64,000 nt of DNA from Bryoerythrophyllum caledonicum (taxonomy: Eukaryota > Streptophyta > Bryopsida > Pottiales > Pottiaceae): the NCBI GenBank assembly GCA_963971425.1, contig OZ020521.1, positions 26,676,012 to 26,740,011 on the forward strand. The letters are read 5' to 3'. How positions within the stretch are numbered: the stretch's first letter is position 1; each line of letters opens with the position of its first letter. The notes beneath the pieces are model-generated. The model ran no database searches, was not told the origin of the DNA, and saw nothing but the letters and a program-made list of their open reading frames with translations. The position numbers and the translations under genes are program-made. Positions 30,690 through 56,400 of the stretch are shown one piece after another.

Positions 30690-32225
30690 CCGGATGTATT
30701 TCAAAACCATCCAAAAGCACACAAAAGATTAGCAAAAACATATTTCATTCCGAATACTATAAAACTCCACCCCGAATATCAACAACTAGCATCTTCCTTT
30801 GCGCCACTCCTAAAAAACAATCACATACTCCACCAAAACTATTCCACCCTCTACCCCAACATTTCCCGCTACATAAACCAAAAAAACAACCACCCATCCA
30901 CACATATCCTATTTGCCATAATCACAACCCTCCACCCTTCAATAGACGAATGCAATAATATCACCAACCAACGCCCTATCAACACAAACCCAACATACTG
31001 GACAGATATATTACTAAACACCCTATCCTCTCTACATAATCCCCCTGAAAGACATATAGATACACCCCATCCATACACTAAATTCCTAGAAGAAAACCAA
31101 TACCTTTTTGAACACAAAACCTCTCTAGACAATGACCTATACAACTTTATTCATAGCCAAACCCCACCCCCTTCCCCCGATGTACTACAACTGAAATTTC
31201 CCTACTTTCCGTACAATCTAATCCTCAAATCTCTTAGATGCTTCAAACCAATCCACGCCTACACACACCCCACCCCGACACCCGCCTACATTTCCCCTCC
31301 ACCCTGTAACCACGGCAATATAGACAATAGAAACACATATATAACTACATGGAACGCCTCAACGTTAAACACTGCTTTACCAGGCATTCATAATCTAACC
31401 GTCCACACCAACACACCACCCGCCATAATTGCCATACAAGAAACCAAACTAACAACTACTAAATCCACAAAATACATCCAAAAAACATTCCCCGATTATA
31501 AACTTATATTTAATAACACTCATTCTCTCATATGATGCATCCAACAACAAAGGCCATATACACCGGCAAGAGGAGGTCTACTCATGCTCATACACCAAAC
31601 ATATGCCTTCCCCGGAAATATTACTAAAAGCCCTACCCCGGCTAATATATCACCATATTTCCAAATTATTGAAATTTCTAACCGTCCCCTCCAACCATGG
31701 CTCATTCTTCATCTATATATGCCCTCGCATATAGAGGACTCTAGGCTTATTCCGGAAATCCAAAACTCTATCACCTCACAAATAAATACACACACTAACC
31801 ATACAATAATACTCTGCGGAGACTTTAACTGAGATATCGCCCTTATTGGACGGCAAAACGGAGAGGTTTTTACCCCCCCACTTGACAGAGACTATCAATG
31901 GCAAAATTATGCGAATAACCTAGAATTATATTTAATTCCAACCGATACACAATACTCTCGCCAAGGTGGACTTAATTACACACACACTAGCCTAATCGAT
32001 GGATTCTACATTAAAACACCTAACCATACCCGATATACATCTACTACCAATACCACAACCAACTTAAACTCGGACCACTTCCCAATCCAACTTAATATAC
32101 CTCACAACACCCTAATAAGTAGACCTCCCACAACCATCAACTCAAATGATATTAAAATATTAAACCCCATCCCAAAAGAAAACCTTGACAACTTTAATAC
32201 AATATTCTTCGAAAAAAACTCACTA
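30687..32225 (+). pseudogene. LINE ORF2, N-terminal part with AP-type endonuclease
   Basis: The frame starts MPDVFQNHPK and runs to the insertion point. An apurinic-like endonuclease is recognisable from about 31350: TTWNASTLNT, IIAIQETKL, ARGGLLMLIHQ, ILCGDFN, DGFYI and LNSDHFPIQL, which are the family's usual active-site blocks in order. Two in-frame TGA codons interrupt it (31533 and 31830). The second falls just after GDFN, where LINE proteins usually have W, so TGG to TGA is the likely change. The N-terminal 200 residues are not recognised. The sense strand is A+C-rich and poor in G. The coding frame continues at 53465 beyond the nested element. Confidence 0.8.
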
Positions 32226-32226
32226 A

Positions 32227-32254
32227 ACACCATATTCGTTATATTGGGAGATTT
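32227..32254 (+). repeat. Left terminal inverted repeat
   Basis: 28 bp; the first 20 bases (ACACCATATTCGTTATATTG) are identical to the complement of the right end, and 26 of 28 match overall. Confidence 0.9.
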
Positions 32255-32749
32255 AGTGACTCCCAAATTAACACATGTAGATAATAAGAGCTAAAGTGCA
32301 CATCTAAACTCTACAATATGGAGGGATATGAGTTTCCATTAAATTGGGAGGTAATGTTTTCTACAAAAACCCCTAGAAAAATAAGTACTACGGATAACAT
32401 TACATTACGAATCTAACTATAATATTGAAAAGAAGAACACATTAGTTGACACTTCTTTTATACCACATGTGTTCATTGAATATGAATAGCTAAATATTCA
32501 CACTCGATCCTACTAACCCGGATTAACACCATGCTCCAATTTAGCTAAAAGTGAGCTAAATGACGGACAAATATCCACTTGTAAGAGAATTAGCTAAATA
32601 CATTTTGATGAGCCCTTTTTGATTTAAAAGAATTTCAATTCTCCTTGTGGAATACACATTGGCAAAAAATATATATAACGAGTTTCAAATGATGGTGCTC
32701 AGAAGTGGGAAAAAAATTGCACACACTACCTCTTTTCGAACTAAAGTGT

Positions 32750-32900
32750 CCCCATCACTTAGAGGTGCAATGAACTCAAAAAGGAAATTCCACACACTTT
32801 AGCTCCACTTGACCTAAAGTGCGCACCTTTACTAAGTACCCTGAACTAAATAAGAAGATTTGCTCACACTTTAGCTCCACTAGAGCTAAAGTGCGACCCA
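32750..32900. repeat. Palindromes in a minisatellite-like setting, left end
   Basis: Two imperfect copies of the element's palindrome (about 32793-32822 and 32866-32893), CACTTTAGCTC with CAC or CACTAG centre and GAGCTAAAGTG. Each is preceded by a related phrase with TGAACT and AAA. Half-sites (GAGCTAAAGTGCAC) occur at about 32287 close to the terminal repeat. The rest of 32255-33210 is AT-rich and non-coding. Confidence 0.65.
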
Positions 32901-33210
32901 ACATTTACTTTCTATCATTCACCATGAAGGCAATTACTGGTATTATTGGTTTCAAGACTAGAAGAAATTTACCACATTGTTATTATAAAAAGAAAATAAA
33001 ACATACTGAAAATTATCACCGATACACAAAAATAATGGAGAGAATATTTCATAGCAATCATTGGCATTACATATTATAGTCATACAGAGTGTAAATTAAT
33101 TAAATACAAATATCTATAATCTCAGCACCAATGGATCTAACCATACTACATGAAGTATTACGCATCAGAATCTAAAATCTAGGAAAATGAAATCCATTTA
33201 TCTAAGTCTA

Positions 33211-36042
33211 TTACGATTCGGACCTAGCAAGTGCTTCCAAGGAGGCCTTGATAATTGCTACTTGTCCCTTCGGAATTTTTGTAGTTGAATCTTGCACATG
33301 ACCTCCGTCCGTCTTTGAAGACCTATGTTTCCATGCTGTCAAGATTGAATCGGTACTCTCCCACGTTATGGCTATCCCCTTTTCAATTGTCCAGTGAAGG
33401 TTGCAATCTGTATCCCAATCTTTATAGAACTTCATAACATCCCGATCGCGCGATATAGGGCGGTAGAATTGGATACGCACGGTGTTTGGCATATCCGGGT
33501 TAGAATTAGGATCTGAAACTGCTTGAGCAATCCAAAATGGGCGCTCGTCCCCATCACAAGGCCGCAATGCAACAAAATAGCCAGCAAAAAGATCACGACC
33601 AACTCTAAAAGAAGGAGGTGGACGATCGCGTCTCTGGCCAACAAAATGCTCATCTTTACGGTACTCCTCACGAACCTCACCCTCCGCTGAGAACTCATCT
33701 TCAATGGCATGGGCAATTCGCGTCGTTGGCCAAAAGCCGTCTACCAATGATATCGGTGTATCCATTGGAATAATCAGAGCATCTTTAACATCACGCCAAT
33801 AATACGAAAGTGGCTCAAAACGCGATCGGGCTTCAACAGACTCCCGCGATGATTCCTCCCAGTGATCGATGAATCCTGAAAGTCCCTTCACCACCTCATG
33901 GAGATGCTGCATCATAGAAGGCTTCAATGCATCAGGTTCTCCGCGAGGCCATAAAGACCTTTGTTCAGAATCCTCCTTCCACAATTTGATGCCACTACCT
34001 TCTCTTCCCTTAGAAAGCCAATCCTCATCATGACAAAGGATTTTATACTTCATTACCGGACAACCACTTGAGTCCACATAAAACTTGAACTAATGAGCCT
34101 TTGTATGACCCTCCAAAGCTTCATCACCGTCCGCAATCATACCCCTAATGAACTTCTTAAAGTCAGGAACCTCTTGGATGAGATGCGGGATTGTGGGAAC
34201 ACTCTCATTTTTCATAGACGACCTCATGAGTAGAGGAATGGTTGGAAAACTCTTCTTCCTCAGCGTCATACTCCAACGTCCAAATAATGCATCTATATCA
34301 TCATGTGTATGACCAACTAGCATAAAATTAACATATACCTCGCCGAAGATGTGTTTTACAACAAGAAGAGACCAAAAACAGAAAACAAAACTATTTTTGT
34401 TATCACCAACTGCATTGTCCATTTGCTCATTCAATATTGGTGGCAAAGGCCTCCCTGGAACTAGGATATCTGGAATCGGCCCTAATGGATCCAAACACAT
34501 CTCCGCACCCTGTAATACCGCCGCAAACAATGGATGAGAACTAGATTCTGGAAAGAGTTACCGGGACGATGACTTCGGAGGCGCCTCCAGGTCACGCAAT
34601 AGTTTTGCGAACGACCCGACCGTGTAATTGGCATCATGGGAGTATAAATCAAGGCCGTAATGGGCGTAACGCTGGTCCACATGACCATGGGCAAGCATGC
34701 CTGTAATTGCAAGAGGCAACTTCATAAGCCCATCCAAGTGCTTTGTTTTATGTGAAAAAACCGGGGAGGCGGTCTTTGAGTGATCCATCTTATCATGCAT
34801 GATGGTAATAACCTCCTGGGGCGACGACTTTGATCGAAATTGGTTCAGGTAGTACAAGTCCCGATGTGAGAAAGCAGAATCAATGTGAACCTGCATTTTC
34901 TTTTGCCATAGCAGTGATGCTTGTGTTCCAGGTTGAGTAAGCTTCTTTTGATTCTGGTATTTGTCACAAGTAGAACAACGGGCAAAGTTGTCTCCACCTT
35001 TCTTAGCATAGTACTCAGGGAAGCTCACACGCCGAATCTTACTCAAGCTTGAGGTTGAAATTGGCGGCAATCCGCAATCAACGAGATGATCATCAAGAAG
35101 CGGTATCTGATCTTTCCACTTAAAACTTGCAGGGAGGACCTTTGCCACAGCCTTCTCGCCAGATGGGAGAACACGAGACCTGTGAGGCATGTGGTCCGCA
35201 TGTCTATCAAGAATGGCTCCAGGAGCAGCAGTAGCCACAACCGTATGACCTCTAGGCTTACGCAAACCGGTATTCCCATGGTGTTGAGCCGCATGACCAG
35301 CGGCAGCGTCCTTCGCATTCCGATAGAAAGTACTCGAACTTACACCCATGATTTTCATTCAGGCATGGGCACAAACGTCCACACCCTCTAGGGTCACAAC
35401 CTTCCTACCCGCAGCGTCTCTATGAAACTGTCTGTGAACGTCGAGTTTGATATGATTTCTGAACTGCACGATGGTCTCACGGTACAAGCGTGTCCGAAGG
35501 ACTCTTATTTTATCTCTAGGGTAGTGTTGAACACAGTTTTGAGTGCAACAACTATTGCTCGCAACAGTGTTAATGGAATGAGGGGTCATGAGGAATTCAG
35601 CATTCCTGGACACTGTTGGATGTGTATTCCTTGAGGAATTGTCGTACGAACGGGAGCTCCCACCTAGAGGTCTGTTACTCTGAACCAACCAGACATTGTA
35701 AACGTCCCTAAGGCTATGATGGAAGAGACTCACACCGTTTAAAAAGACTTGTTGAATAGGCCAGGACTTAAACGAGTACCTCCACTCATCAGGAGCTTCG
35801 TCTAAAACAAAAGTACTGGACACCTGTACTACAACATTCGAATCCTCAAGAGGACCAGAGGAACCTAGAAGTGCACTGGAGCGGACATTGCGAACCAACC
35901 CCTCCGCAACGCGAACACCCGAACCATTGTGAAGCGAAACAGTCATCCCGACCCAGAGACGGCGAGGAATAACATCAAACTCAGGAAGGTTTGGGTTCAC
36001 GGGAGCGTCAACATGAACATCGTTGCCCTCCGAAGACGACAT
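33211..36042 (-). pseudogene. DUF7869-type DDE-like transposase
   Basis: One minus-strand frame of 944 codons from ATG 36042 (MSSSEGNDVHV) has no frameshift but three in-frame stops: TGA 35359-35361, TAA 34558-34560 and TAG 34090-34092. Each can come from a single C-to-T change (W or R, Q and Q codons). Domains in order: N-terminal segment; helix-turn-helix-like SSSTFYRNAK; zinc-ligand-like CSTCDKYQNQKK; VITIMHDKMDHSKT; NEQMDNAVGDNKNSFV; and VGHTHDDIDALFGRWS; then a C-terminal beta-rich region FVALRPCDGDERPFWIAQAV. The spaced acidic residues D, D and D/E fit an RNase-H-like transposase core, an inference from spacing. It is the best transposase candidate. The reading frame is open up to 36117, and an AG acceptor-like site precedes the ATG. 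Confidence 0.7.
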
Positions 36043-36379
36043 CCTGCATTCCAATGAGATACATATTAAATAACCCTGACAAATAAAAATGGGTAAACGC
36101 CTTGTAGGAATAGACATTTATGAAGAAGCATAGGAAGAGGGTAATTGATCTCGAATCGAGGTAAGGTCTGGTGCTTGAAAATAACTATGATTCAAGTGAG
36201 TTGACATGGCAAACCAGGCAAATTTAGCTCGACTCGAGGTAAACTCATGCGGTATAAGATGACAAGTATAAAATGTCATGCAATTAGCTATAATCCGAAT
36301 ATGAAATTATTTCACCCTTGACAAAGACAACTAAGCCCGACCCGACCTAAAATTATGACTATCAGACTCATTGTCATTT

Positions 36380-36822
36380 TAACTCGAGTAGAGGTAAACA
36401 GAAATAGGACATCAGGTATGTTAGTTTAGCTCGAGTCGAGCTAAACTTTCCTTCAAAAGAAGATAAGACAATTTAGCTCAACTCGAGCTAAACTGTCGAT
36501 AATAATATTTATCGACAGTTTAGCTCGAGTCGAGCTAAGTTGTCCTAGGAAAGAAGGTAAGACACTTTAGCTCGACTCGAGCTAAACTATCAATACAAAT
36601 TGTAAGACAGTTTAGCTCGAGTCGAGCTAAACTGTCAATACAATATTGTAAGACAATTTTGCTCGAGTCGAGCTAAACTGTCTTACCTTCTTTCCAAGGA
36701 TAGTTTAGCTCAACTCGAGCTAAACTGTCGATAATAATATATATCGACAGTTTAGCTCGAGTCGAGCTAAACTGTCCTTGGAAAGATGGTAAGACAATTT
36801 AGCTCGACTCGAGCTAAACTGT
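36380..36822. promoter_or_regulatory. Cluster of palindromes upstream of the transposase
   Basis: Nine near-perfect palindromes with half-site AGTTTAGCTCGA around a single central G or C lie at about 36423, 36471, 36513, 36571, 36606, 36651, 36702, 36746 and 36792, plus a weaker one at 36381. Two direct repeats of about 118 bp (from about 36471 and 36702) contain them, together with a second palindrome GTCGATAA-TAATAT-TTATCGAC (36495 and 36727). The cluster lies 0.4-0.8 kb upstream of the transposase start. Position suggests regulator or transposase binding, or a foldback transcript; the function is inferred. Confidence 0.85.
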
Positions 36823-37436
36823 CCTTCCGTGATTTTCGGCGTCTTTTTAGGGATTCATATGGTAAAACTCTTGAGCATATGAATCTGACTCTCTGTGTAC
36901 TACAACCCAAATCTTTCCGTTAGTCGTCACGAAACTCGTAGTGATGCTTCAAAATCACAGTAGCAACTGGAACCACCGCAATAACCCTACACACTGTCAC
37001 ATCCTAATTGCTAGAGACTGTGCACGGAGAATGCAAGAAGTATACATTGTGTACCTTATGAAGAAGACAACTGGTGCGTTGTTGCCTCGCGCAAGCGCCC
37101 TGCTCAACCGTGCGTAACCTGTAGATGTTACCCTCCTCAACCTCCGACAGTTCTTCTACCTCCAAGCCTCTCCACAACAACCTTGCACAACAACCAAAGT
37201 GAGAAGGAAAGAAATGAAGAAAGTTTTCGAGGATCGGCGAGGTCACTCACGGACATACGACCGTTTCAGAATTGGCGGGAGGAAACTTCAGAATTGGCGG
37301 GGGGGCTTTTCCACAGCCCCTAAAAAGGTGCAAATTCGAAATCTTAGCGGGAAACAGAATCAACTATTTCCTGGCTGACTAAAATAAGGAAGAGTACATA
37401 CCTCGAATATACTCGCACATGCGAGTTATATACAAG
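36823..37436. other. No supported gene
   Basis: Only a short minus-strand ORF (37004-37246) without recognisable domain is seen. It may be leader or first-exon sequence of the minus-strand transposase gene. Confidence 0.3.
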
Positions 37437-37453
37437 GTTTTAGGGTAACGCTC

Positions 37454-37486
<33 letters not shown>

Positions 37487-37551
37487 GGTTTGGGGTTTAG
37501 GGTTTAGGGTTTGGTATTTAAGTTCAGGTTTTAGGGTTCAGGGTTTAGGGT
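37437..37551. repeat. Interstitial telomere-like repeat
   Basis: A run of TTAGGG, TTTAGGG and variants (TTTGGGG, TTCAGGG) on the plus strand. The mixture of TTTAGGG and TTAGGG is degenerate and lies well inside the giant element, so it is not a chromosome end. Confidence 0.9.
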
Positions 37552-40219
37552 CCTTGGTTTAGATGTTATCTTCTGATGTCATTTCATTTCAATATAATAA
37601 TACTTTGAAGATTCAAGATATTGACAATTCAACTAAGGTATAGGGAAATGTCAAGAAGATATTGAGATGATTAGAAATAATTTGTATTACGATCCAAATA
37701 GGACTTATCTATTATGTTGAAATCAAAGACCTTAACAAACAAGTAGCATTAAAAAAAAAACATATTTTATGTGCACGTGTATTTTTAGAAAAAAAGTATG
37801 TATTCAAACATGCTTTGGACATCATTTCTTTGGGGTTTTAAAAATGTGCATCATGTTACGATTTTGTCATCAATTTAGAATGTGCATTCTTTGGCAAGAA
37901 TCCCAAGTGTCTCCATGGTCTGGATTTGGAATTGAAATTGGTTACTAATATTTTGAATTAAAATATCTTATATTTGAGTTCACATTGCATTATCATGAGT
38001 TTAGGGTGTGGCAGTCTAAGCATGACATGAAAGATGGAAGAATTCTTGACCGTACACAATTTATTTCATGTTTTGACGTGAAATTAAAGACTTTGTCATT
38101 TGTAACATATAGAGAGTGGAACAATATTAAAAGATTTCAACAAGGAACGGAGAGACCTCCTCATGACAAAAAAAGGATAATCAAAATATAAAATATAACC
38201 ATTACAAAGTGTATCACTTAGTGCATCAGGCATAATTTAATGTTCGTAATGTAAGTAATTTTGAATTTATTTATACATGCAAAAATGGAATAATTAGTTT
38301 TTGAGCACGTTCTAGTGGTCGCAAATTATATTTTAAATTCTCAAAATTTTGTAGAAGGATGATAAAAGTCATGAGGCATAATTATTAGTAATTTATTTTC
38401 TCAATGAACGTCTTCAATAAAAGTTATGCGAGCCAAAAGAGAAACTTCTCGATTGCCGGCACGTCGAGCAACCTAAAAAACGTTTTGCTATGACTCAGTA
38501 TGGAATGTGATATTTTGAATACATAGAAGTAATATTAGAACGAATGATATTGTGGAAAAACATGTTATTCTTCTAGTGAAAAATAAGATTACATCCCAAT
38601 TCATACATTTTCACACATTGTCACATATTATTGATTTAGGGTACCAAGAACACTTAGACTTCATATCCACTAAAGACTAGGGGATCGTCATAGTTTTTTG
38701 CTTTTTAATATTACTATTGGAGATTTAGGTCCACATATTTTGAAAACCCTTTTAAAATTCAAAAGATTACTATTTCACTTGTGAAATACTTAACCATAAA
38801 GAGAAGTACGGAGTTCAAAATGATTGTTTGTAGAAGTGGATATATACATTGCACATACATCAGCTCGGTTTTTAGCAAAGGTGTTCACCATCACTTTGTG
38901 CAATGAACCAAAAGGAGTGTGTGCACACACTTTAGCTCCAGTTGCGCTAACGTGTGCCTCATCACTGGGTGCATTGAACTAAAAAGAAAATATGCACAAT
39001 TTAGCTCTACTAGCGCTAAATTGTGCACCATCACTAAATGGAGTAGATTAAAAAGCAAAAATGCACTATGTAGCTCCAGTATACAGAAGATGGCTTCTAG
39101 AGAAGTGGACACTAAATAGGAATCCATACAGTAATTGTAAAATGAACAATAAGTGTAGTGTCAAAACTATACATCACCCAATGTCAACTACTACTCTAAA
39201 TGTCAATCCTAGTAAATAGTGGAACATAAAGTTTTTTACTTGTGGACAATTAGTTTAGGAAACCTTAATCATGGTTTGATTACATCTTGAGCATCATAGT
39301 AAGGAAGGGTTGAGTGCATGTAGAAAAGCAAAAATTTGCAAGAAAGAGCTTGGGAATAATCGGACGTAGGTATGGAGCAAACGAAAAATATCAAAAATTG
39401 GACAAAGTAGAATGTAAAATATGGAGGGAAAATGAAACTGCAAGTAGAAGATTGGAAATATGAGAACATTCTTCTGGAAACGAAAATGAGAAAAGAAAGG
39501 AATATTGGAAAAGGAAAAAACTTAAACATACAATAAATATAGAAATACAAGTAAAATACTCATTAGATATCCATCACGTATTATGCATTCAATGTGCATT
39601 ACATATTCAGTAAATATTCATTAAATACTTATTGAATATTCAAATACACATTAATTTTACATTAGAAATTTATGCACTATTCATTATCTATTCATTAACA
39701 GTGCATTAAATACTCTATAAATAATCATTAAATATACAAATATTAATTAAACTATCATAAAATATACTTTTAAAACTTCAAACATTCATTAAGTAAAATT
39801 TAAATATTCTTTAATTGTGCATAGAAGTTTTAGATATACAAATATACATGAATTATCCTGTAAAAAATCATTACAAAGTCATTAGTTATTGGCTAATTAT
39901 ATGATTACACATTAAGTATTCATTTGGATAATATTAAAAAATATAAAAAAATGCAAGAGATGGGAATGAGAATAGTTGTGGATAAGACGATAAGAAATTG
40001 AGGTTGAAGATGAGACGAAGAATAAATGCATGGCGACCGGTAGGCATAACATATTGAGCTTATACAATTTATCAAGTATCAAAATTGTGTGCTAGGGAAG
40101 AGTTTTGATAGAGGGCTATTACAAAATGAACTGTAGTAGGTGAACAAATGAGGGATAATATTCATGACAATGGTGGCTAAAACTAGTTGCCAACTTGTTG
40201 ACTAATAGTGTTCTAGAAA
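37552..40219. other. AT-rich interior of the giant element
   Basis: No supported gene. It contains a diverged copy of MITE family R1 (about 38440-38830), two palindromes in a minisatellite-like phrase (38923-38956 and 38993-39029, with TGCAN-TGAACTAAAAAG repeats between) and an array of degenerate ATTCATTAAATA words at about 39560-39900. Short ORFs here have no recognisable similarity. Confidence 0.5.
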
Positions 40220-40609
40220 TAGAGAATCTCCACTGGGGCCGAGGGACCGGGATGCGAGAATAAACACGGTAAAGCTCACTCTGTGAGGCCTAGGCCGGTG
40301 TATCAGCCCACTGGAGTGGCGGCGCCGGTTCTTCTAAACAATAAATTTACAGAAAGTACAGGGGAGACTAAAATTCCCCGGGAGCATGTGTTCAATCATG
40401 TAATTACACGAGGGAATTAAAAAAAATCAATAAAAACCCCAAAACAAATTAGCCTACTATGGCGTAAGTGTTGGGCGTTGGCGTTCCCTCACAGTGGCCA
40501 ATTCGGGGACGGTGCGGGGGGAAAAGGATAAACCCCCCTCCCTTCATCTCAAACTTGGGCACCTTCCCGCTGGCGTGGAAAATTCCCCGTCAGGGGTGGA
40601 GATGCTCTA
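40220..40609. mobile_element. MITE with TAGAGCATCTCCAC ends, inside the giant element
   Basis: The left end TAGAGAATCTCCACT and the right end GGTGGAGATGCTCTA (40595-40609) are inverted with one or two mismatches. The interior is GC-richer than its surroundings (GGCCGAGGGACCGGG, GCGGGGGGAAAAGG) and non-coding. These ends are typical of plant MITEs of the GAGCATCTCCA type. It marks a third level of nesting: MITE in giant element in LINE. Confidence 0.65.
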
Positions 40610-40667
40610 ACTACTGGATTTGTACCGTTAGAGTAAAAGCAAAATGAAGTGAAAAGTAAAGAAAAAA

Positions 40668-40773
40668 TTCACACTTTAGCTCTATTAGAGCTAAAGTGTG
40701 CACCATCAGTAAATGTAGGAAACTAAAAAGAAAATATGCACACTTTAGCTCCAATAGAGCTAAAGTGTGCACC
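40668..40773. repeat. Two palindromes with GCACACTTTAGCTC arms
   Basis: Imperfect palindromes at 40670-40702 and 40738-40773, each CACACTTTAGCTC with a 5-6-base centre and GAGCTAAAGTGTG, separated by ACCATCAGTAAATG and AACTAAAAAGAAAATATG. The same spacer phrase accompanies the copies at 32.8 and 38.9-39.0 kb. Confidence 0.7.
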
Positions 40774-40859
40774 GGCATTTATTTTATAATTATACAATTG
40801 CAAGATGTGGTCTTAACATACTTAATGTCAGTTCGATTCTCAAAGTAAATAATATCAAA

Positions 40860-42252
40860 CTCATAAAAAATCAAAACGTGAATTCAAAGTAATAGAATCT
40901 TAAAATCGTAGCTTTAAAACTCTCTTAAGTGTGCTTCACCTAATAATTGGTGTAGGAGGAACTTATATACATCGATGGTAATGAATTTACTCCTTTTCTA
41001 ATGCAGAAATTGAAATCCAGTCAAGTGAAAGCCAGCTGATCCACTGAAAGCATGAAAGAAAACTAAACACTATAATCCTGTTTGTAACAGTAAACACTAT
41101 AATCGTTCACTTCCGTCCAATCCAAGTTTGTGTATTATTGAGAAAATGCCAATTTAGAAGTTTTAATTGAGATCATACGAATGAAACTGGAAATAATCAC
41201 TTTTCTTTTGCTACCTGTTCATTGCCCCAGAATATGCAAAATTGTAGTGTTAATGGCCAAGAAAAATTGTGTAGGAAATTTACGAGTACAGAAATACAAC
41301 ACGCACGTAATATCTAGAACTTACATTAGAAAGATTAAAATGGCTTCTTGAAACTCCGGGTATCAATATTGAAGGTGAATGATTTGTGGTGCATCCATCT
41401 GTAATATCTGAGGGTCTCACCCGAATATCACGAAGGGTATCTCGGGAGCACCACACGGCCACAGGGTTTCCACCCTCACGGCTTTAGGTGCCCCCGAAAG
41501 TACCCCACGAAATCGTGGCGCTCGCTTTTTCTCTTCCCTTTCCGTTGATGTGAGTGACCAAAAGGGGCCCTCACTCTTTTTCTTCATTTTTCCCAAGTTC
41601 TTGATAGAATTAACCAAATTTTAGTTAAATTGGTGGACAACCCATCTATTAGAGTCAAATTCCTAGATTAATAGGCCTAGTGCCATGATGTGACACTAAG
41701 TTTCCTATTTTTTTCCTCCTCCCTACTAATATGCGGGAAAGCGTAGTGGAAGTGAAATGGAAATGAAGAAAAAGATAGAAAAATAAAAAGAAAGTCCTTG
41801 GAAAATGACTAAAATTTGAGGAATGGGTCGAAAAATATGGAAGAGTGTCTCCTAGCAGGTAGAAGTAGTGGTAAAATTTCTAGAATTTTCCGAGTTGAAT
41901 TGCTATTTTATTCTAGGATTTGACTAGTGGATTGGCGGGTTGACCGTTCGGGAAAAGTACTTAGGAAACTTCAAAAATGCTAAGAAAATATAGGTAGACT
42001 AATTAGGGTGCTAGGAGTCCAGCTGTGTGGTTAGTTTTTGAATTTATAGGTAAATTGCAAATCATCAGTAGATAGTATTAGATCTAGTGTAATAGTCTTT
42101 AATAGATCAAAAGAAAAAGAAAAAGGAAAAAAGAAAAGAAAAAGAAAGTGGTTGGAGGTGCTTCTCCATGCACATGCCACATGACAATTCTTGCCACCAT
42201 GGATTTAATTTTAGGGGGGCTTGTCAGGAGCAAAGCGGCGAGTTAATGCGCG
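40860..42252. other. Diverged R1 copy and AT-rich sequence
   Basis: About 40860-41270 aligns with MITE family R1 (AATCAAAACGTGAATT, AATTGGTGTAGGAGGAAC, GATCCACTGAAAGCATG). From 41271 to 42252 no gene is supported; a purine-rich AAAAAG tract lies at about 42108-42150. Confidence 0.45.
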
Positions 42253-42379
42253 TCATAAACTTAAAACATGCAAAAATGGCTGTAAGTAGCCAATCCTGCA
42301 CTTCTGTGAGAGGTCATGGGCTGCCTCATTAAAAGTAAGCCAGTCTTGTCGGGGAAGGAAAAGAAAAGACAGGAAAAAA

Positions 42380-45593: not shown

Positions 45594-45685
45594 TATAACA
45601 ATAAACTTAAACAACAACTCAAACACAACAACATTCGGACTTTAAACATTCCAAAAGTATAGTAAACCAATGATATCGACGACCC

Positions 45686-45847
45686 AACTCATGTCCATTT
45701 CTCGTTATATTTTCACATGTGTGCAAGAGCTTCAGTCTCGCTTCAACCACTTGAGAACCTCAAAGAGTGAGGTTCGTGAGTGATTAAAGCGTGAACTGAA
45801 GCTCTTTCACAGTTCTGAGAGTTAAACGAGAAGTAGCCATGATTTGA
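45686..45847. repeat. Long foldback, copy 1
   Basis: About 162 bp that pairs with itself nearly end to end. CTCATGTCC and TTTCTCGTT pair with AACGAGAAGTAGCCATGA; AAGAGCTTCAGT pairs with ACTGAAGCTCTT; CACTTGAGAACCTC pairs with GAGGTTCGTGAGTG around the loop AAAGAGT. A second copy lies about 320 bp downstream. Confidence 0.8.
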
Positions 45848-46006
45848 ATAAAAATGTATAGGAAAGTCGTTTGAATGAATACTGTAAGTGTCAGAACTGT
45901 TCAGCTATGCATTCCATGCATGAGCACTTTAGCTCGAGTCGAGCTAAAGATGAAGCTAAAACTTGAATACAACATTGATACATTGGTGTAATTGCAGTCT
46001 CCTAAC

Positions 46007-46169
46007 TCAACTCACGTCTACTTTTCGTTCACCTCTCATAAATCATGCAAGAGCTTCAGTCCCGCTTCAACCACTTATGAACCTCTAAGAGTGAGGTTTG
46101 TGAGTGATTTAAGGGGAACTGAAGCTCTTCCACAGTTCTGAGAGTTGAACGAGAAGTAGGCATGAGTTG
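46007..46169. repeat. Long foldback, copy 2
   Basis: Same structure and about 85-90 percent the same sequence as 45686-45847. TCAACTCACGTCTAC and TTTTCGTTC pair with GAACGAGAAGTAGGCATGAG; GAGCTTCAGT pairs with ACTGAAGCTC; GAACCTC pairs with GAGGTT(T)G. The arms GAGCTTCAGT and CGCTTCAACCACTT are conserved between the copies. Confidence 0.8.
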
Positions 46170-46357
46170 ATTGTAAGCGTCTAAGAGAACGGTCTAATTG
46201 ACTAGATTTTGTTGCAGAGTATTATTAACATACTTGTATAAAGTTACACATTAGCTCGAGTCGAGCTAATGTGTGACCTCGCCGTTCTAATCGGATGATC
46301 ATTTAAACAATCTAATATTTGTGCTCCGTTTCGTGTTTGTGCAGATCTGAGAGGGAC

Positions 46358-49300
46358 ATGATGGTGTCTCAGCTGCAGCACTTCTTCCAACCAAAGCCTG
46401 TCGACATTGACGATGATGATGGAGACGACAACAAACACTTAGATTGTTGGGAGCTCAAGGATCCTTCGATGACACTGAAGTGGACGCTGTTGTGGGCCCC
46501 CTACACAGAGAATCTAGTGTTTGGTCAGACCTTCGCTGGTGATATCCGTGAACCCCAACACACCAACTTCAAGACCAAAATTAATGATGTAGTCCACGAA
46601 GATAACGATTAGTGAAGTTGTCGTGTGAGACAACCACTAAGTCTATCGATCCTTATATGTTCACTATTGTAGTGAACAATACTTCGTCTCCCTTCTCTAT
46701 CTTCGACTTAGTCAGTTCTCTTAGGGGGTCACAGTTTGATGACATAGTGGCTCAGGTCGACCACGAAATCTCCCAAAAGAAATGGGAGACTAGTAGTGGT
46801 CAGCCGCTGAAAGCGAAGGCTGTAGCGAACAAACTCCGTGTCATTCTTTCCAGAATGAGTACTTTTGCCGCTCTTGAGAAGGCGAAATTAATCGCGTCTA
46901 GGCGCCCTATAGAACTTTCGGTAGTTTCTGGTGCCGTAACCGGTAGCCAGAATATAAGTCAAGCATCGGTACGGGTAAGAACTCCAGGTGCAAGAGCAAG
47001 TCGAAGCACCCTGCGCAACACGCTGTCCGCGTCTCCCGTCAAGAAGCGCTCAGCTGCCAAGAAGCCGGAGACTTCTTCCAGGAAGAAGACGAAACTCGAT
47101 TCAGAGGAAGAGTTGGCCAATTCGATGGCCTCTGCACTGTTGGAACTCCCTTCGGCGCTCGAGTTCGGAGAGGTAACAGACTACATCAACGTCCAACAGA
47201 TATATCAGAAATTCTGGACGGAGTGTCAGAGCTGTTTCTTTCAAGGAGACAGAGAGATGAAGATCGAGCTTGATGTGATGAGGCTGCATAATGCACTACC
47301 GGAGTGGACGATCCGTGCATTCGAACCTCGGGGAATGGAGGAGTTGAAGCATTATTACCTCGAAATGCCGGACAAGACGCAGAAGTAGACTCTCTGCATC
47401 ATGCCCAAGCTCAATCATATGCCAACGAAGGTTGAGGAGCTCAGCGACTGCGACTTCTATATCATCAACGGCCAGCACAACGTTGCTGCATCAAAGTCGA
47501 TGATAAACGACAACGTATCGGAGTTTATGAGAAGGCACTTCCGAACATGGCAGTGTTACATTGTCTGGACGGAGGACCTTGAGAAGCTGAGGAAGATTTC
47601 CGCGTATTTTAATCGCGTAAATCACTTGGTCCAATTCAAGCCGACGTGGGCAACAAATATCCTTGGCTCTCGCACGTTGTGGATCCAAGCTGGAAGACCG
47701 ATGCCGAAGCACTCCGCCGCAGGCATTCACGGGTCCCACAGATCAGGTCGGAGAACGGCAGTGGAGATTGCCAATGACAAGAAGTTTGAGGTAATTAATC
47801 TTAACCAAGGTCATGCACTTTAGCTCGACTCGAGCTAACTTCTGTGCTTGTCCTTCTTAGTATAGTTCTGTATAGAGATTCAAGCACTTAGAGTGTACAC
47901 TCTCCGGTTGCAAGTTAGCTCGACTCGAGTTAACCTGCATTTTTGGGTCCTGCTAGTTTGGTTTTTTTTCCTCTGTGGTTGTACGCTAAATCAACACTGC
48001 CAATGTTGTGCACAACCATTTCTAAACGCGGTTCGTGAGCGCTTCGCAATGATCGACGTCGCCAAAAGCCAGGCAGCGCTCAAGAAAGCCGGAAAGGCGA
48101 AGGAGCTCTCGATTACGAACGAGGTGGAGATTATCACCTCGTCCGATGAGACCTTCAAGCTCTGGTTCGATGTCATCTCTTCGGCGGCACAAGGCAACCT
48201 CATCAATGTCGATTCAACAACGTCGCCCTTGTCAAAGTTTAAGAATGCCAAGTCCTGGGTGCCTGAGAAAGATGGGATATTGACGCACGAGTTCTTTAAG
48301 TTTTTCGGCAATATGACCGAGGCTGATCACGCAATGCTGTGTAAACATATTCTCAATCGATCACGGCCATCGCAAAAACTACCTTATCCTAAGGTGGTTG
48401 TAAAGCACCCGCAATCAGTGCTAGAGGATTGCTACAGCGCCCGGGACTGGGTCGATTGAAGGAAGAGGAAGGAGGTCGCTCGGATGGAGCTTCAGTTGAT
48501 CACGCCGAAGCTCGCCTTCTTCAACAGCACTGGAGCGTACAGTCATTCCAACTGGCGAAAGTTTAAGAAGGACTACAACGTCAGCAAGGCCTCAAAGCGT
48601 GCCCTCTTGGATTGGGGTCCACCGGATTCATACTATGCAAACTCAAGGCAGACGCAGTTTCGCAACTGCAAATGTGAAGATCTCTCTCCATATGCGAAGG
48701 AGTTCTTCAGAGTCTTCCTCGATGTGCGGGCGCGATCCGTTGCACCTGTGGGGGCCTTGCACTTTCGTCCTTACAAGGCGGCAACCAACTCGCTCGGAGG
48801 ATGGCCCTCGGATTCGTGGCGTAACTTGGGCTGCAACGTGAAGCTCGGCATCATCGACTTCCGTAATATCCCTGGGTTTGCAGGGAAGGCAACGTCGTCA
48901 TTGGAGAAGCCCTTCTTCGACGAGTTCATGACAATGTTCGCATTGAAAGGGCAGCCTTCTCTCACCGGTCTTCCAGCGTGGCTCTTCATTTGCGGCGACA
49001 AGCAGTCACACCTTCAAGTGACAGCGTTTGCTGAGGGCCCGTCGTTGTGCCATGCGTACGACGTCCTGCAGTCGAAGTATCTTCCCTCCGACAACGAGCG
49101 CTTGGGGGGATTCGCGCCAAAGACCAACAACGCTCTCGACCCGGTTCGCCTCCTCTTTCTCTTCAAGAAAGAGCTTACGCAGATTCCGGCCGTGAAGAAG
49201 ATCTACGCAGCTCCGGAGCATGTGTTGCACACCAAGCTACGCAAGTACAACGAGCTGGCGTACTCCATGAACATGAACGAGCTGAGAATGGAGTTCTTCA

Positions 49301-50637
49301 TCAAGGTTCTTGAGCTGTTTAGCAAGAAAGGGGATTCTACTGTCCAGCTGTTTTGCGGGACGAAATTACTGACTGCGAGTGTGGTGAGTATCCCTGCAGT
49401 TTAGCTCGACTCGATCTAAACTGTTGATCCCCTCTCTGACTGTGAATGTATTGTTTCAGAGAGGTCATCTCTCATGCTTTTGTAGCGTGGCACTTTAGCT
49501 CGAGTTGAGCTAAAGTGCCGGCTTATACTTATATGGTTTTCTAGCAGTCGTCAATCGCGTCATATTCTTCCAAGTTTTAATGGTTGCGTTTTCCTATCAG
49601 TGTTCTTTTGTACTCACTTTAGCTCGAATCAATAAAAAGTGTAACTTGTTTAATCCATTGGTGTGCAGATGTTGGATCTGGAGGCATTTTGCATATCCCA
49701 CAACACCGATGAGCAGGACCTGGACGACGCCCAAGATGTAGCGTTGACGTTGGATCGGGCCAACTTTGTTATTGGTTCATATCACGTCAGCGCAGAGATC
49801 TTCCCCGAGCTTGGAGAGGCTCTTGCCAAGGGGAAGGGGAAAGCGATTATCGATCTCGTCGATGAGGAGGAGGAGGAGGATGTGGTCCCGAGCCCCATTG
49901 GTGTGTGCCCGAGCACCAGTACGGTCACACCTGATGCCGATTCCCATGACGACTTCGATACCAACACTCCGGCGGAGCTTCATAGTGGCTCTCAGTCTGA
50001 AGCGGGAGAGACAATGGGTACCTCGCGGCAGCGGCTCGATTTCCTGGAGTTGGAATCGCTTGATATCTCCGAGAGGCCTCATTCAGCTCCGACCTTGGGT
50101 GGGTCATCCGCTCGCCCCGCAACCAAGAAGAGGAAAGTCGCCAACGCGACCGGCCACTCTCCGTTGGCAATGGCGAGCAGTGCTCAGGATGACATCAGGT
50201 TTATCGCCCTCGAGAAGAAGCTCGAAGAGGAGGCCACCCGGATGAGGTTGATGGAGTAGCGGCTGGCGGAGCGTGACGAGGAGCTCAGGGATATGCAGCG
50301 GAGGCGTGACGAGGAGATGAAGAGGGACCAGGACCAGAGGCATAACGACATGCTGCTCATGATGCAGAGATTCATGACGGCTACTATGCCTCCTGTTGCC
50401 ACGACACAACCCGTAGTGAATTTTACGATCCCTCAACCTCCAATCTCAGCTGACGATGGGACTGGGAGTCTGCCTCGCGATTCGCTTATGCCGTCTCCGG
50501 CGGGTTCCTCCCCCATCTCCATGGGGGCTCAATTGCTGCCTGATCCCCCGTCCCGGCCGACCCGCCCCTCTTCCTCCCCGAAGTCGCCCGCTCGGAGCGA
50601 TTCTGTCGTTGATGTCCCCAGCTCATTGTCACGTTAG
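46358..50637 (+). pseudogene. Large passenger protein with DGQHR/ParB-like motif and coiled coil
   Basis: Likely exons: 46358-47790, about 48040-49383 and 49669-50637, with phase-0 introns starting GTAATT and GTGAGT. Each intron holds palindromes. The product would exceed 1,200 aa. Around 47446-47507 it reads DCDFYIINGQHNVAASKSM, resembling the IxDGQHR signature of ParB/Srx-fold proteins, followed by KISAYFNRVNHLVQFKPTWA. Later parts are WGPPDSYYANSRQTQF and a globular region to 49383. The C-terminus has an acidic run, an NLS-like KKRKV and a coiled coil (LAERDEELRDMQRRRDEEMK). In-frame stops: TAG 47386, TGA 48457 and TAG 50257, each explainable by C-to-T. One frameshift lies near 46610. Function unknown; exon 2 start is uncertain. 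Confidence 0.6.
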
Positions 50638-50730
50638 TGTAACGTAGTTGCGAATGTTAGAGGCAGAACATTTTTTAAATGTCCAATTTTGTACTCCAGT
50701 ATTTTTGTTAATATTACAGTGCTCAGTGAT

Positions 50731-50757
50731 CACTTTAGCTCAACTCGAGCTAAACTG
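50731..50757. repeat. Single palindrome between passenger genes
   Basis: CACTTTAGCTCAACTCGAGC followed by TAAACTG, an imperfect copy in the spacer after the large passenger gene. Confidence 0.75.
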
Positions 50758-50838
50758 CTTGACATCTGACGACTTTGACTTGTATCAGTGTCCAATGTGC
50801 CCATGAGCTGATGGGTTGAAGTTGTTGAATTTTTTCAG

Positions 50839-51122
50839 ATCTTAGTTTTGGTGATGACGCGATTGCTCAACGAGTCGTAGATGAGGTCGTTCAAACTGCA
50901 GTCCCAGTCGTAGAGGATGTCGTCTAATCTTTGGCCGTGCTCGTAGACGAGATCAATTGTGATTCTCCTGTCCCGGAGCCCGCTCTTCTTGTCCCGGAAC
51001 CGTGCCCCCAAATGGTTCTGGAGCACTCGGGGCCCCTTGACACCATGCAAGTTTCGTTGGAATCGATGGGGGTCCAAAACGAATTGCTCCAAGACGATGA
51101 AGTTCTCGAGGTGCTCTTCTAA
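50839..51122 (+). pseudogene. Acidic passenger exon, unrecognised
   Basis: After a pyrimidine-rich acceptor (TTTTTTCAG) a frame reads DLSFGDDAIAQRVVDEVVQT, then VPVVEDVV, an in-frame TAA and VLVDEINCDSPVPEPALLVP down to a TAA at 51120-51122. The internal TAA could come from CAA. The segment is acidic with no recognisable fold. It may be a 5' exon of the phosphatase-like gene that follows; the joining exon boundary was not found. Confidence 0.4.
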
Positions 51123-51225
51123 CACTATCCACACTCTGCGCTTCCCCATGTTGCTTCCCCCCCCCGTTTGCTCTCTTCGTTCTACATTATGTTGACTTGT
51201 CGTTGTTCATGAATCTTTAGTAATA

Positions 51226-52050
51226 TTGTTCGTTCTCCTGGCGTTTCTGAACGAGGTCTGCGAGGCATCAATAAGTGGTGCCAGTAATTTAGAAAAAATA
51301 CCTAGAGTCTGTTCAGATTTCGAGGGCAGGTGGTTGAATATTGAGCTGGACCTAATTGGGATTCTATGCACTTGTAAGCCATCGTGGCAGGCCAGGAGAT
51401 CCAGGGACTCTATCCCATCCATTCACTCGGCTTCGGTGTCGGCCGAAGTAGGCCCTAAGCTTGTTCGGGTGCGCCCTGGTTGTACTGAATTCCTTACGAA
51501 GTTGTCTAAGATTGCCACCATCACGGTCTGGAGTTCAATGATGGAATCTACAACACGTGAGATATGTCACTATCTTTTTCAGCATAGTTCTGCGTATCCT
51601 CTCAGGATCTTTGGTCAGGAGAGTTGCGATAGGGTTCCTGAGCGTAGAGTCGGTAACAGAACAATCTACATGAAGGAATTTGGCACTCAGAAGGACATCT
51701 TCTTGAAGACGTTATCGAACCATCTCTTTAATAGGTTGGGCCGTGAGTATACTCCGACAAATACGCTTGTCATTGACGATAGCCCGATTAAGCATGTCCT
51801 CAATTTGCCGGAGAACGTCCTTCTTCTTCCGTCATGGTCGCACAACCATGATGGCGCGAGACATGATTCTGTACTGCTGGAGGAATTGCTACCATATCTC
51901 TCTGACCTTCATCAGTTTTCGGGTGGCCTAGCGCAGTACCGTGTTGAACATCCCTCGGGCCGGGAGATGTTCTATAATGATCAGAAGACGTGTGGTCAGT
52001 CTGCGAGTATTTGTAACGCAATTCAAGCCTATCAGAATCTTCGTTCCTAA
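51226..52050 (+). CDS. FCP1-like HAD-family phosphatase, transposon passenger
   Basis: The frame (up to 274 aa, first exon edge uncertain) shows the FCP1/NIF-type HAD fold: motif I region WLNIELDLIGILC, then LVRVRPGCTEFLTKLSKIA, VWSSMMES (motif II serine), IFGQESC, FLKTLSNHLF (motif III lysine) and TLVIDDSPIKHVLNLPENVL (motif IV double Asp). In motif I the first Asp is present but the second Asp of DxDG is isoleucine; plant FCP1-like proteins often have Asn there. Catalysis may be weak or lost. FCP1 relatives act on phosphoserine proteins such as the RNA polymerase II tail. No stop interrupts it, unlike neighbouring genes. It was probably captured from a host gene. The true start is not resolved. 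Confidence 0.7.
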   Translation: MFVLLAFLNEVCEASISGASNLEKIPRVCSDFEGRWLNIELDLIGILCTCKPSWQARRSRDSIPSIHSASVSAEVGPKLVRVRPGCTEFLTKLSKIATITVWSSMMESTTREICHYLFQHSSAYPLRIFGQESCDRVPERRVGNRTIYMKEFGTQKDIFLKTLSNHLFNRLGREYTPTNTLVIDDSPIKHVLNLPENVLLLPSWSHNHDGARHDSVLLEELLPYLSDLHQFSGGLAQYRVEHPSGREMFYNDQKTCGQSASICNAIQAYQNLRS

Positions 52051-52079
52051 TGTAGTTGGAAACGCTTAGATCCTTAATA

Positions 52080-52107
52080 CACTTTAGGTCGAATAGAGCT
52101 AAACTGT
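52080..52107. repeat. Degenerate palindrome after the phosphatase gene
   Basis: CACTTTAGGTCGAATAGAGC followed by TAAACTG; arms keep the TTTAG/CTAAA pattern but the centre is changed. Confidence 0.6.
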
Positions 52108-52317
52108 TTCGATTGACTGCAGCTCCATTTTGTAAATTTTGTTGGGCCGTGTTTTGTATATATTTTTTGATAATACAAATGGAGATGTTTCTCCACTGAA
52201 TTTGTTGTGCGGATTGGATACCTACTGCTGGTGAAATGTCGTCCTTTTTTTAATGATTGGAATTTTTATCTATTGTTCTGAGGTATGTGAGTGTCACTTT
52301 TGTTGAAATTTCTACAG

Positions 52318-53172
52318 GGCTGGGATTGTCGGGCGTCCGTGGATTCCTTGTTGGGCCCACATGAGTTCGCCCTTTCCCTTCGGAGTAAAGGGCTTTTGTT
52401 GCACTCTGCTGCAACCGCGCAGTCAACCATGGATTATTCGACCATGGCAGTGGACGACGGAGTTGTTGAAAGCCCTATTGCGCGGGAGCCAATTCATGAA
52501 AGGAACAATTCACCTTCGCCGCAGTGGCCTCGTTCAGTTCCGGGGTCTCCGTACCTAAACCTGGATAATTGTATTCCGGCAAAGCGTATTCTCTATGACG
52601 GTTTAAGGGATGCCACTCACCACCGCTCGCTCACGGTGTGTGTTATGCTGACCTCCAAGTTATTGCACTATTGAGTCGTTCTTGCCTAGAGAGTCTTGGT
52701 TTGTTATTGAGGTACCTTGCACTCTTGTAGTTTTGCTTCATTTGAGCTTGTTTTTGTTCATTGGATGTTAAATGTGCTCTGTGAATTTCCCCTTCTGCAA
52801 TTTAGCTCCATTCGAGCTAAAGTGCACTAGGATGGATCTTGATGATACAGTTTTCATGTGTTGTCGTGTAGGTGTATTCCACCTAAAGTGTATTTGTTTG
52901 GATTGTTTGTGGCGCCTATTGTGCAGGAACCATTTGGTAAATGTCTTCACCCCCGTATTATCTCAAGAAATGCTGTTGGAATCAAATGCTCTCCTTCCGC
53001 TCCCACCCGCTGTCACTCGCTGCCCAAATCAAACACGGACGAGGTGCGTAGGCGGGGTTTGCAGCGTCTTCTTGAGAGTCCATTAATGCAAGAGAATGGC
53101 GCAACATGGACTCGGCAACGTCAGAGGGCTTTTTTGAAGACGCGTATGGAGGCTTATGGAGGGACTCCCTAG
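52318..53172 (+). CDS. Unrecognised passenger gene, at least two exons
   Basis: An exon at 52318-52635 follows a TTTCTACAG acceptor (GWDCRASVDSLLGPHEFALS and later NNSPSPQWPRSVPGSPYLNL) and ends at GTGTGT. A second exon follows GTGTAG at about 52872 (CIPPKVYLFGLFVAPIVQEP, then KSNTDEVRRRGLQRLLESPL) and ends at TAG 53170-53172. The intron contains a palindrome at 52798-52826. I recognise no domain. It may be the 3' part of the phosphatase-like gene or a separate gene. Exon phases were not verified. Confidence 0.4.
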
Positions 53173-53434
53173 ACTGTTTGATTAGTAATAGGGCGATTGT
53201 GTTTTGCGTCGAGGTAAATGAGTGTTGTGTGTGACTTTTTTTATGAAGTTTTGAATAAAGCTTGGATTAATAGTATATGCTTCCTTTACCGTTACCACTT
53301 TTTTGGACAATCAACTATTTTAGTCCATCCATGGTATGAAATACAGTATTCTTGATACATTGTCTTTATGCTTTGCACCTTCAAATGTCTGTATTTATTG
53401 ATACTTCAACAACCATATTTCTCCATAGTCATGG

Positions 53435-53462
53435 AAATTTCTCAATATAACGAATATGGTGT
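53435..53462 (-). repeat. Right terminal inverted repeat
   Basis: 28 bp, the reverse complement of the left end with two mismatches (positions 21 and 24 from the tip). LINE ORF2 resumes immediately after. Confidence 0.9.
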
Positions 53463-53464
53463 TA

Positions 53465-56400
53465 GTACAAATAGACTCCCTTATAGATATTCTTTCTAAC
53501 TACCAACACCTCACACACATACAATGGCAAGAAGCTTGCACGACTCTTGACAAACTTATTAACGAGATTTCTACTACACTAGAAAAGACTTGTCAAGCGC
53601 CCCCAATCCCACAACTAATACCGAGAACCTCGAAACAAGGGGGTATCTCCCAAAGAAAACTAGCCAAAAAGTGGAAACAACATCTTGCCACATACCACAC
53701 TATTCGCAAAACAATTTATATTGCTAAAACCAACCAAAATTGGCAAACCCACCCCATACTCTCCGAACTACAGCACCTCCGCCATCCCCAAATCCCACAA
53801 GTACGACCACCCAACACCCCTCACGAAGACTGGCTAAAAGACATTGCAATCATTGCAAAAACCGCCAACAAAGAAGCTCAGAAAATCACTACAAAATATG
53901 CAAGAGAATGTGTCAAAAAAGCTATTTCTAAATATTGTCAATTATATGAAACAAGCCCAAAAAAGATTAATAGAAAAGTCTTTAAAAACAACACAAACCT
54001 GCCACTGGACTGCATTTTAGACCAAAACAATAACATATTAACCAGCCCAGATGACATCGCAAACGAAATACATCTTCAACAATCCATAAACAATAGACCA
54101 ACCGTCCCCCCATGTTACTTTCAACCACAACATACACCAACATGCACATGCGGAGTTAGAAAATACCCGTGGCATGATTTAGACGGATTTACTATTGATA
54201 AAAGAGGAGAACCAACTACACCTCTCCACACATACTATAACAGAGACACATACAACATGTGCCTAAAAAATCTTGGAACCAACAAAGCTCCTGGCCCGGA
54301 CCATATACCCAACTCAATTCTAAAAAACATGCCCCCAAGATTCCACGATCTCCTATCATTATTTTTCCTTCATTGTTACAAACAAAAATCCATTCCTACA
54401 TCTTGGAAAACAAGTCTAACTATCTTATTATACAAAAAAGGCAACCCATCCGTACTACCTAACCACCGACCTATTGCCTTAGCTAACACCATTTACAAAT
54501 TATATACTAGTACACTTACATCAATATTATCGGCCTACGGAGAAATACACCAAATATTACACGAAAGCCAAGAAGGGTTTAGAGCCGAGAGAAGTACCAC
54601 ACGACAACTTCAAACCCTCATTGCCGCTCTTGAGGATGCAAAATTCACGAATAAAGACATCTACATACTCTATATTGACTTCAAAAACGCATTTGGTTCC
54701 ATTGACCATCCTCGATTGCTAGCCGTTATGAGTGATCTTGGGTACCCGGAAGACGCAATCACACTAGTTGGCAATATATACTCCCAATCTACTACTACAT
54801 ACGTCAGAGAATTCTTTGGTAAAACACGCCCTATCCCCATCCAACGTGGTACCATCCAAGGCGACACATTGAGCCCGTACCTCTTTATTATTTTTCTAGA
54901 ACCTCTATTGAGATGGCTTCAAAGAGGCAATGATGGCTACACATTTGGAACTTCTAAAGTCACCGTAAATTCGGCCGCATATGCCGACAATCTAGCGGCC
55001 ATCTCCGGGCGTCTTAAACCACTCCAAACCCAATTAGACAAAATAGACAAATTTTGTCTATGGACCGGGATGGAACTTGGGGTCCAAAAATGTGCCGTAA
55101 CCGGATGTCCAAATAAATCCAAAATAAATCCGACCGCCTTCAAAGCCCTTATTCAAGCTACCAATATCCACTATCGTAACCAACCAATTCCGGTACTCAA
55201 CCAAAACCAACCTTACATATACCTTGGAATAAACCTAGTTCCATCGTTAAAATGGAAAATTCAAACCCACGTTACTACTACGAAGCTTATTAAACAATGC
55301 AATGAACTTACACTATGCCCGGCCACATTACAACAAAAAATAAAAATGATTGATACCGTCATACGACCGGGTATCTCATATAGTTTTTATGCGGTTCCTT
55401 ATTCCATGCCCGCCATAAACAAACTTGACAAAAAAATCATAGCCATACAAAAGAAAGTATGTGGACTCCCTAAATGCATGCCCAATGTCATAACACAACT
55501 CCCCCACGAACTATTCGGATTAGAAGCTTTTTCCCTCAAAAATGCCTATTTACACTACATTGGAGAACAACTCCAAAATGCACTTAACGACGAGGGATGA
55601 CTAGGCCTAATTTACAGCGGACTCCTTCGACACATCTTTGCCATTTATGGAGGAGCACAATACCTCCAAAGACTGAAAAAAACTAGTTGTCTTCGGTCTC
55701 CTATTACCCGCACACTCTTTCTACTCAAAACAGAAGGTCAAACATTCCTAAAAAGCACGCTAGAAGATTTCCTACTAGGCCCCGCACCGCTTGAACAAAA
55801 TTGGGCAAACGAAATACACAATCTCCCTAGACTTGACCGACAACTATCTGCCAAACTCCTACAAAAACTTTTATCAACAAACATTACCGATCTAAAACAA
55901 ATTACACTACCAAATGGAACACAACTTATGGACGACAAGAACTACAGAACATTCTACGGTACCCCTCACAAATTAATAAAAAGTGCTTTGAATATTGCTA
56001 AACAATTATTTTGTCAAACTCCATGTCTCCCTGATTGTCTGAACCCTTGCACTACTCACGCCCCACCTTACACACTCAAAGACCCGTACATCATTGGTCA
56101 CAATGACACCCATCCCAATACCAATCTCCCATTAATCCCTCCAAACCCGCCACACTCACGACCATATGCCCCTCCACCACATATATAAAAAAATCCTTCC
56201 ATATACCCAATAAACAACATAACCGCGCACAAACATAGAAAATATATTGACTCCAACAAAATAAGCAAACAACACACCTTATACCTATGCCATTGGTCTC
56301 ACAATAACACCTCCTACACCAAATGGCTCCCCCAAAGAAATCTTTTCCCTTGGCACAACTCAAACGCTTCCCTACATAACACATAAATCCTCACACAATA

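Follow-up and report, generated by a model that had tools for sequence, protein, structure and literature searches.

What interrupts the second open reading frame (ORF2) of a long interspersed nuclear element (LINE) in the moss Bryoerythrophyllum caledonicum, and how might so large an insertion control its own activity? We consider these questions for a 64,000-nucleotide stretch (contig OZ020521.1, positions 26,676,012 to 26,740,011), referred to as the window and located at C9:26676012-26740011 in the 437-Mb genome that was searched. The interrupting element belongs to a high-copy family of 17–21-kb moss DNA transposons with 29-bp terminal inverted repeats (TIRs) and a 4-bp target-site duplication (TSD). 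Its members carry a DUF7869 gene (the presumed transposase), a second, long gene and many copies of one palindrome, and the last two may form a protein–site pair. The element and its flanks are as follows.

32226..53463: whole transposon, 21,238 bp, termini AACACC...GGTGTT
32226..32254, + strand: left TIR, 29 bp, 27 of them matching the right TIR
53435..53463, - strand: right TIR
32222..32225: left TSD, ACTA, 4 bp, one mismatch to the right copy
53464..53467: right TSD, AGTA, 4 bp
31833..32225, + strand: LINE ORF2, part before the insertion
53468..55600, + strand: LINE ORF2 with reverse transcriptase, part after the insertion

An earlier note on this DNA had proposed a very large plant DNA transposon nested in a LINE, with defined ends, and had suggested looking elsewhere in the genome for paired ends at 15–25 kb; the ends and the family counts agree with the proposal, and further copies were found. 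The 12-mer ACACCATATTCG occurs 418 times on the forward and 437 times on the reverse strand (23 and 15 for a reversed control), and a 28-mer of the TIR, allowing up to two mismatches, occurs 1,058 and 1,065 times on the two strands (0 and 0 for its control). Among the first 100 listed places of ACACCATATTCG, 14 of 32 adjacent +/- pairs are spaced at 15–22 kb, a distance shown by none of 32 -/+ pairs and by 2 of 35 same-strand pairs. The TIR counts and the pair spacing together therefore identify a real and large family with a common size near 18 kb. The inverted repeats themselves had been recognised in the earlier note, at 28 bp with 26 matches, but starting one base inside the end identified here.

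To define the duplication we used 18 TIR pairs: those of the window and of nine full elements (E1–E9), one pair 4.8 kb apart, one 404-bp element and six pairs taken from separate end loci. An identical 4-bp repeat lies flush with the TIRs in 14 of the 18 pairs, against 2 of 306 swapped pairs; 5-bp flush matches occur in none of the 18, and 2-bp and 3-bp flush matches in one pair each, which rules out the TA (or TAA/TAG) duplication previously suggested. The duplication ACTA/AGTA consequently sets the element at 32226–53463, and the TA is part of this 4-bp repeat. Where the repeats are not identical, E4 and the window agree at three of four bases, the pair L014/L015 at one, and E57 at none. This last pair (E57/L057, C1:7735787-7740962; 4.8 kb between + and - TIR 12-mers) was rejected as a family member, having flanks without a match and a DUF7869 match of only 29%, though it is still counted among the 18; it may represent another DUF7869 family or a chance pair. 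A further TIR pair, L029/L030 (C1:15815864-15875555), spans 59.7 kb and has a perfect duplication of 4 bp, AAAT; nested insertions may have enlarged this copy, or the match may be due to chance. L058 and L006 are 404-bp miniature inverted-repeat transposable elements (MITEs); each shares the family's TIRs, has a 4-bp TSD and contains two palindromes as well as a long inverted repeat at its centre.

Excising the element with one copy of the duplication leaves LINE ORF2 open and in frame over 841 amino acids, as the earlier note had stated; however, about a third of the neighbouring cut points (those keeping the frame) do likewise, so the in-frame joining is weak support by itself. The nine full elements E1–E9 measure 17.4–19.6 kb and have their gene content and order in common (four were retrieved in reverse orientation; parts of the second gene are missing from E3 and E4). 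The colinearity of these nine copies rules out an origin by piled-up insertions, leaving a single secondary insertion of about 2.5 kb (about 41556..44076), which only the window copy has among the ten compared and which is the main cause of its greater length. This insertion has a G-rich skew on the + strand and low-complexity open frames. The view that internal palindromes mark a single unit thus holds for the element as a whole, to which the palindromes belong, but not for these 2.5 kb.

A scan with a 27-bp consensus at a lax cut-off (up to seven mismatches) found 341 palindromes in ten elements, 28–40 in each and 37 in the window copy, where five shuffled consensuses gave no match. All 37 fall outside the tabulated exons: they are found in arrays, introns and intergenic DNA and towards both ends. 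Three groups stand out.

32537..32893: four left subterminal palindromes, at element offsets 511, 696, 769 and 841
36328..36821: array of 11 palindromes at 45–47-bp spacing, upstream of the DUF7869 gene (3–11 in the ten elements)
45216..45452: array of 5 palindromes at 52–53-bp spacing, upstream of the second gene (3–8 in the ten elements)

An exact 21-mer of the palindrome is found at 3,562 places in the genome (control 0), and 57 of 60 listed distinct places lie within 22 kb inside a TIR, compared with 3.5% of random positions. The two 404-bp MITEs each have one palindrome 48–49 bp from each end, with GGT..ACC replacing GCT..AGC in both halves, and all four of these are symmetric at 11–13 of 13 pairs. 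That gene-less MITEs retain the palindrome suggests a role in mobilisation too, possibly via the transposase, and raises an alternative in which the palindromes are subterminal and internal sites of the DUF7869 transposase, serving synapsis of distant ends, with the second protein an unrelated accessory. The four palindromes within 0.7 kb of the left end fit such a role. Most palindromes, however, lie far inside the element, within second-gene introns and the upstream arrays, where synapsis would not need them, and we consider this alternative unlikely as the sole account; both uses may coexist.

The symmetry of the sites invites another explanation, that they act as RNA hairpins or DNA cruciforms which regulate splicing, or which supply or escape small-RNA silencing. 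In all four elements examined, symmetric pairing was higher than in any of 500 shuffles; two-sided changes surpassed every shuffle in one element and equalled the maximum in three. This comparison is descriptive and carries no probability, because palindromes of one array are related to each other. One strand of the 498-nt array folds at z -28.5, and several palindromes stand directly after putative splice donors. Against this, palindromes also occur in subterminal DNA and in the 404-bp MITEs, where transcription is not required, and it is the core sequence, not symmetry alone, that is conserved, as in a protein site. We regard hairpin function as quite improbable.

The right-hand part of the element offers a candidate for a protein that would recognise such a site.

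46360..47790, + strand: exon B of the second gene; putative start taken from copy E1, window frame open from 46606 onward, TAG at 47386-47388
47257..47634, + strand: predicted ParB-like domain (residues 218-343 of protein P0066), motif INGQH invariant in the alignment
47791..48015, + strand: putative intron with two palindromes (47816, 47911)
48016..49383, + strand: exon C, with TGA at 48457-48459 in the window copy
48748..49398, + strand: predicted N6-adenine-methyltransferase-like fold (P0066 residues 715-931, the last of them past the putative exon end); no DPPY motif
49384..49668, + strand: putative intron with palindromes at 49397, 49491 and 49615
49669..50637, + strand: exon D region, stop at 50257-50259
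51196..52050, + strand: exon with a NIF/FCP1-like phosphatase of the HAD type, Pfam match at about 51442-51918 (E 1.5e-15)
52291..52674 and 52846..53172, + strand: two more conserved open frames, perhaps last exons of the same gene

Compared with annotations in the moss Ceratodon, these exons appear to form one long gene with predicted ParB-like and methyltransferase-like parts and an FCP1/NIF domain, where the earlier note had seen several spliced passenger genes. The gene is not a passenger, because it is conserved and under purifying selection. Averaged over the 45 pairs of ten copies, the ratio of non-synonymous to synonymous divergence (dN/dS) is 0.23 in exon B, 0.21 in C, 0.46 in D, 0.43 in the NIF exon, 0.40 and 0.49 in the last two frames and 0.37 in the DUF7869 gene, compared with 0.71 and 0.76 when two non-coding stretches are treated as codons; individual pairs spread widely, up to 2.3 in short frames. 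Exons B and C show strong codon periodicity (chi-square 34–116 per window, against 7 in an intron window), as does part of D (78); it is moderate in parts of the other exons and ambiguous about 50.2–51.4 kb, and is at most 10.3 across 36.1–46.0 kb. The last interval includes the following feature.

37021..41520: non-coding middle, 90–96% majority identity among ten copies, no strong codon periodicity

Telomere-like TTTAGGG/TTAGGG repeats occur within it at 37469-37573. Synonymous divergence among the ten copies is unequal, at 0.15 in gene 1 (33214-36117), 0.33–0.39 in exons B–D (46606-50637) and 0.18–0.21 in the NIF and last exons, from which we infer that parts of the element have different histories, as if gene 1 and exons B–D had undergone separate recombination or homogenisation. 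The window copy itself is decayed: stops interrupt the DUF7869 frame three times and exons B, C and D once each. E1 shares the one in exon D, which the single open frame of E2 does not have.

Searching for translations of the palindrome in 94 homologous proteins returned seven occurrences, against 0.04 expected. Five follow closely on exon B, apparently because gene prediction continued there into the intron, and two are near protein starts (one DUF7869 protein, one Ceratodon protein). The palindrome has therefore been kept at one intron position, though element proteins are only about half identical. Among the Ceratodon entries for the second protein, 12 of 16 are named for the U or V chromosome (M758_UG, KC19_VG), and one relative of the ParB-like part, P0087, is filed under the name of an uncultured cyanobacterial bin (Leptolyngbya), through either moss DNA contamination or transfer.

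Fold-level evidence from structural models assigns residues 218-343 of the second protein to a predicted ParB/Srx fold and, at weaker strength, residues 715-931 to a predicted N6-adenine-methyltransferase-like fold that has lost its catalytic motifs. The nucleotide motif of ParB is GERR, and DPPY and FxGxG are motifs of N6-adenine DNA methyltransferases. All 22 ParB-like proteins have INGQHSVAA or near forms (the commonest 14-residue form in 14 of them) in place of a GERR-type motif. Fold matches to ParB and to active N6-adenine methyltransferases would agree with a ParB-guided adenine methylase that marks the element, for self/non-self recognition or with N6-methyladenine, in place of an anti-silencing scaffold. 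The likeness to METTL3/METTL14, MTA1 and CcrM-type enzymes is, however, one of predicted fold, with the catalytic motifs absent or degenerate: a DPPY-type motif is found in none of 20 proteins checked and an FxGxG-type motif in two. Together with the low to moderate confidence of this part of the model (block pLDDT, the predicted local distance difference test, 23–78), this makes an active methylase very unlikely.

A conserved ParB-like accessory protein and conserved palindromes within the same element suggest a protein–site pair. The second protein would be recruited to the 28–40 palindromes, whether these stand in an array ahead of either gene, within introns or in subterminal DNA, and once bound would build a nucleoprotein patch, by analogy with VANC proteins at their motifs in VANDAL elements. 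Such a patch might keep the element transcribed or shielded from silencing, and might help to bring its ends together. We give this account as a whole about an even chance; within it, binding of the palindromes by the second protein would be the likeliest single step and anti-silencing the likeliest use. The modest confidence of the methyltransferase-like model weighs against it as well. More tentatively, and at somewhat less than even chance, a eukaryotic transposon superfamily may have acquired or evolved a parS-like system, in which dozens of conserved palindromes in each element, loaded by a fusion of ParB-like, pseudo-methyltransferase and RNA polymerase II C-terminal-domain-type phosphatase parts, would form a self-recognising nucleoprotein domain controlling the element's own chromatin, splicing and transposition in mosses.

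The protein presumed to move the element is encoded at the other end.

33211..36117, - strand: DUF7869 gene, presumed transposase, one frame with three in-frame stops (TGA 35359-35361, TAA 34558-34560, TAG 34090-34092)

Judged from its likeness to protein P0001, the gene probably starts at a codon near 36042. An alternative genetic code is ruled out as the reason for the stops, since all three stop codons are represented and uninterrupted frames are present at other loci: a genome search gave 3,604 first-look candidates, and many of the 150 scored and listed, all over the cut-off, have stop-free frames of 1,066–1,087 amino acids. A protein search found 43 homologs, the named ones from Ceratodon purpureus and Physcomitrium patens. 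An alignment of 32 sequences (P0001 numbering) shows, in order, a hydrophobic strand followed by H-D-K-M-D (D417), a hydrophobic strand followed by D-N (D542), and G-H-T-H-D-D-I-D (D582/D584), which we read as the motif order of an RNase H-like DDE/D enzyme. The DUF7869-type DDE protein of the earlier note is thus borne out for DUF7869 (Pfam E 4e-29, for one piece of the gene), while its DDE identity and transposase activity are inferred, because the AlphaFold2 model is weak (mean pLDDT 59) and fold searches listed no RNase H match.

The superfamily Lanisha, reportedly discovered in Ceratodon, is an obvious comparison, as the closest annotated relatives of our element are in Ceratodon. Lanisha was proposed in 2020 as a cut-and-paste superfamily (Maumus, McDaniel, Carey, Repbase Reports 20:2521, cited in PMC12730594), and Carey and Maumus are also authors on the Ceratodon genome preprint. 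The relevant passages of PMC12730594 describe it as EnSpm-like (CMCT clade), with a C(2)C/H(3-4)H signature between the second D and the last E, and give CMCT/EnSpm-like elements a 2–5-bp TSD and, in most cases, CA..TG termini. Our 4-bp TSD falls within that range, but it lies flush with AACACC...GGTGTT termini, not CA..TG, and in DUF7869 C356-x2-C359 (P0001) precedes the presumed first D417 of a triad that is itself putative. By description, and not by sequence, motif order and termini do not fit Lanisha well.

The Polinton/Maverick elements are similarly giant, typically 15–25 kb and integrated by a DDE integrase in the part of PMC6431247 consulted; our element differs in its 4-bp TSD, and no Pfam match to PolB, integrase, protease or ATPase was found in the element ORFs scanned, a subset from which short exons could escape. 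Only DUF7869 and NIF pass the cut-offs in these ORFs, with no match to a MULE (Mutator-like element) transposase or VANC domain and no ParA-like gene. The bacterial ParB–parS system (also KorB and Noc) shares the predicted fold of residues 218-343 and palindromic candidate sites, but here GQHS replaces GERR, the host is a eukaryotic transposon, and binding is a proposal. The nearest functional precedent is VANC of Arabidopsis VANDAL elements, whose transposase is VANA. In the sections of PMC5735166 consulted, VANC21 accumulates at a short motif of VANDAL21 that lies in introns, between genes and in terminal non-coding DNA; in introns and ahead of VANA21 this motif is repeated in tandem, in arrays that vary in size. 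The moss element likewise combines an accessory gene with many short motifs in introns, intergenic and terminal DNA and with variable upstream arrays, but its motif is palindromic and its accessory protein is predicted to be ParB-like, methyltransferase-like and FCP1-like. Within the open-access literature, which leaves most subscription journals outside, nothing was found on DUF7869, and the moss element did not appear among the listed matches on ParB and transposons. The palindrome/ParB-like system is the new part of an element otherwise of known kind.

The element is present in large numbers in a moss genome. If the second protein binds the palindromes, this would be another case, beside VANC, of a plant transposon that runs a control system of its own addressed by sequence, here on a fold known mainly from the partitioning of bacterial chromosomes. 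It would then offer a direct way of testing what keeps a transposon almost 20 kb long active. It would also give DUF7869, in Pfam merely a domain of unknown function, a concrete setting.

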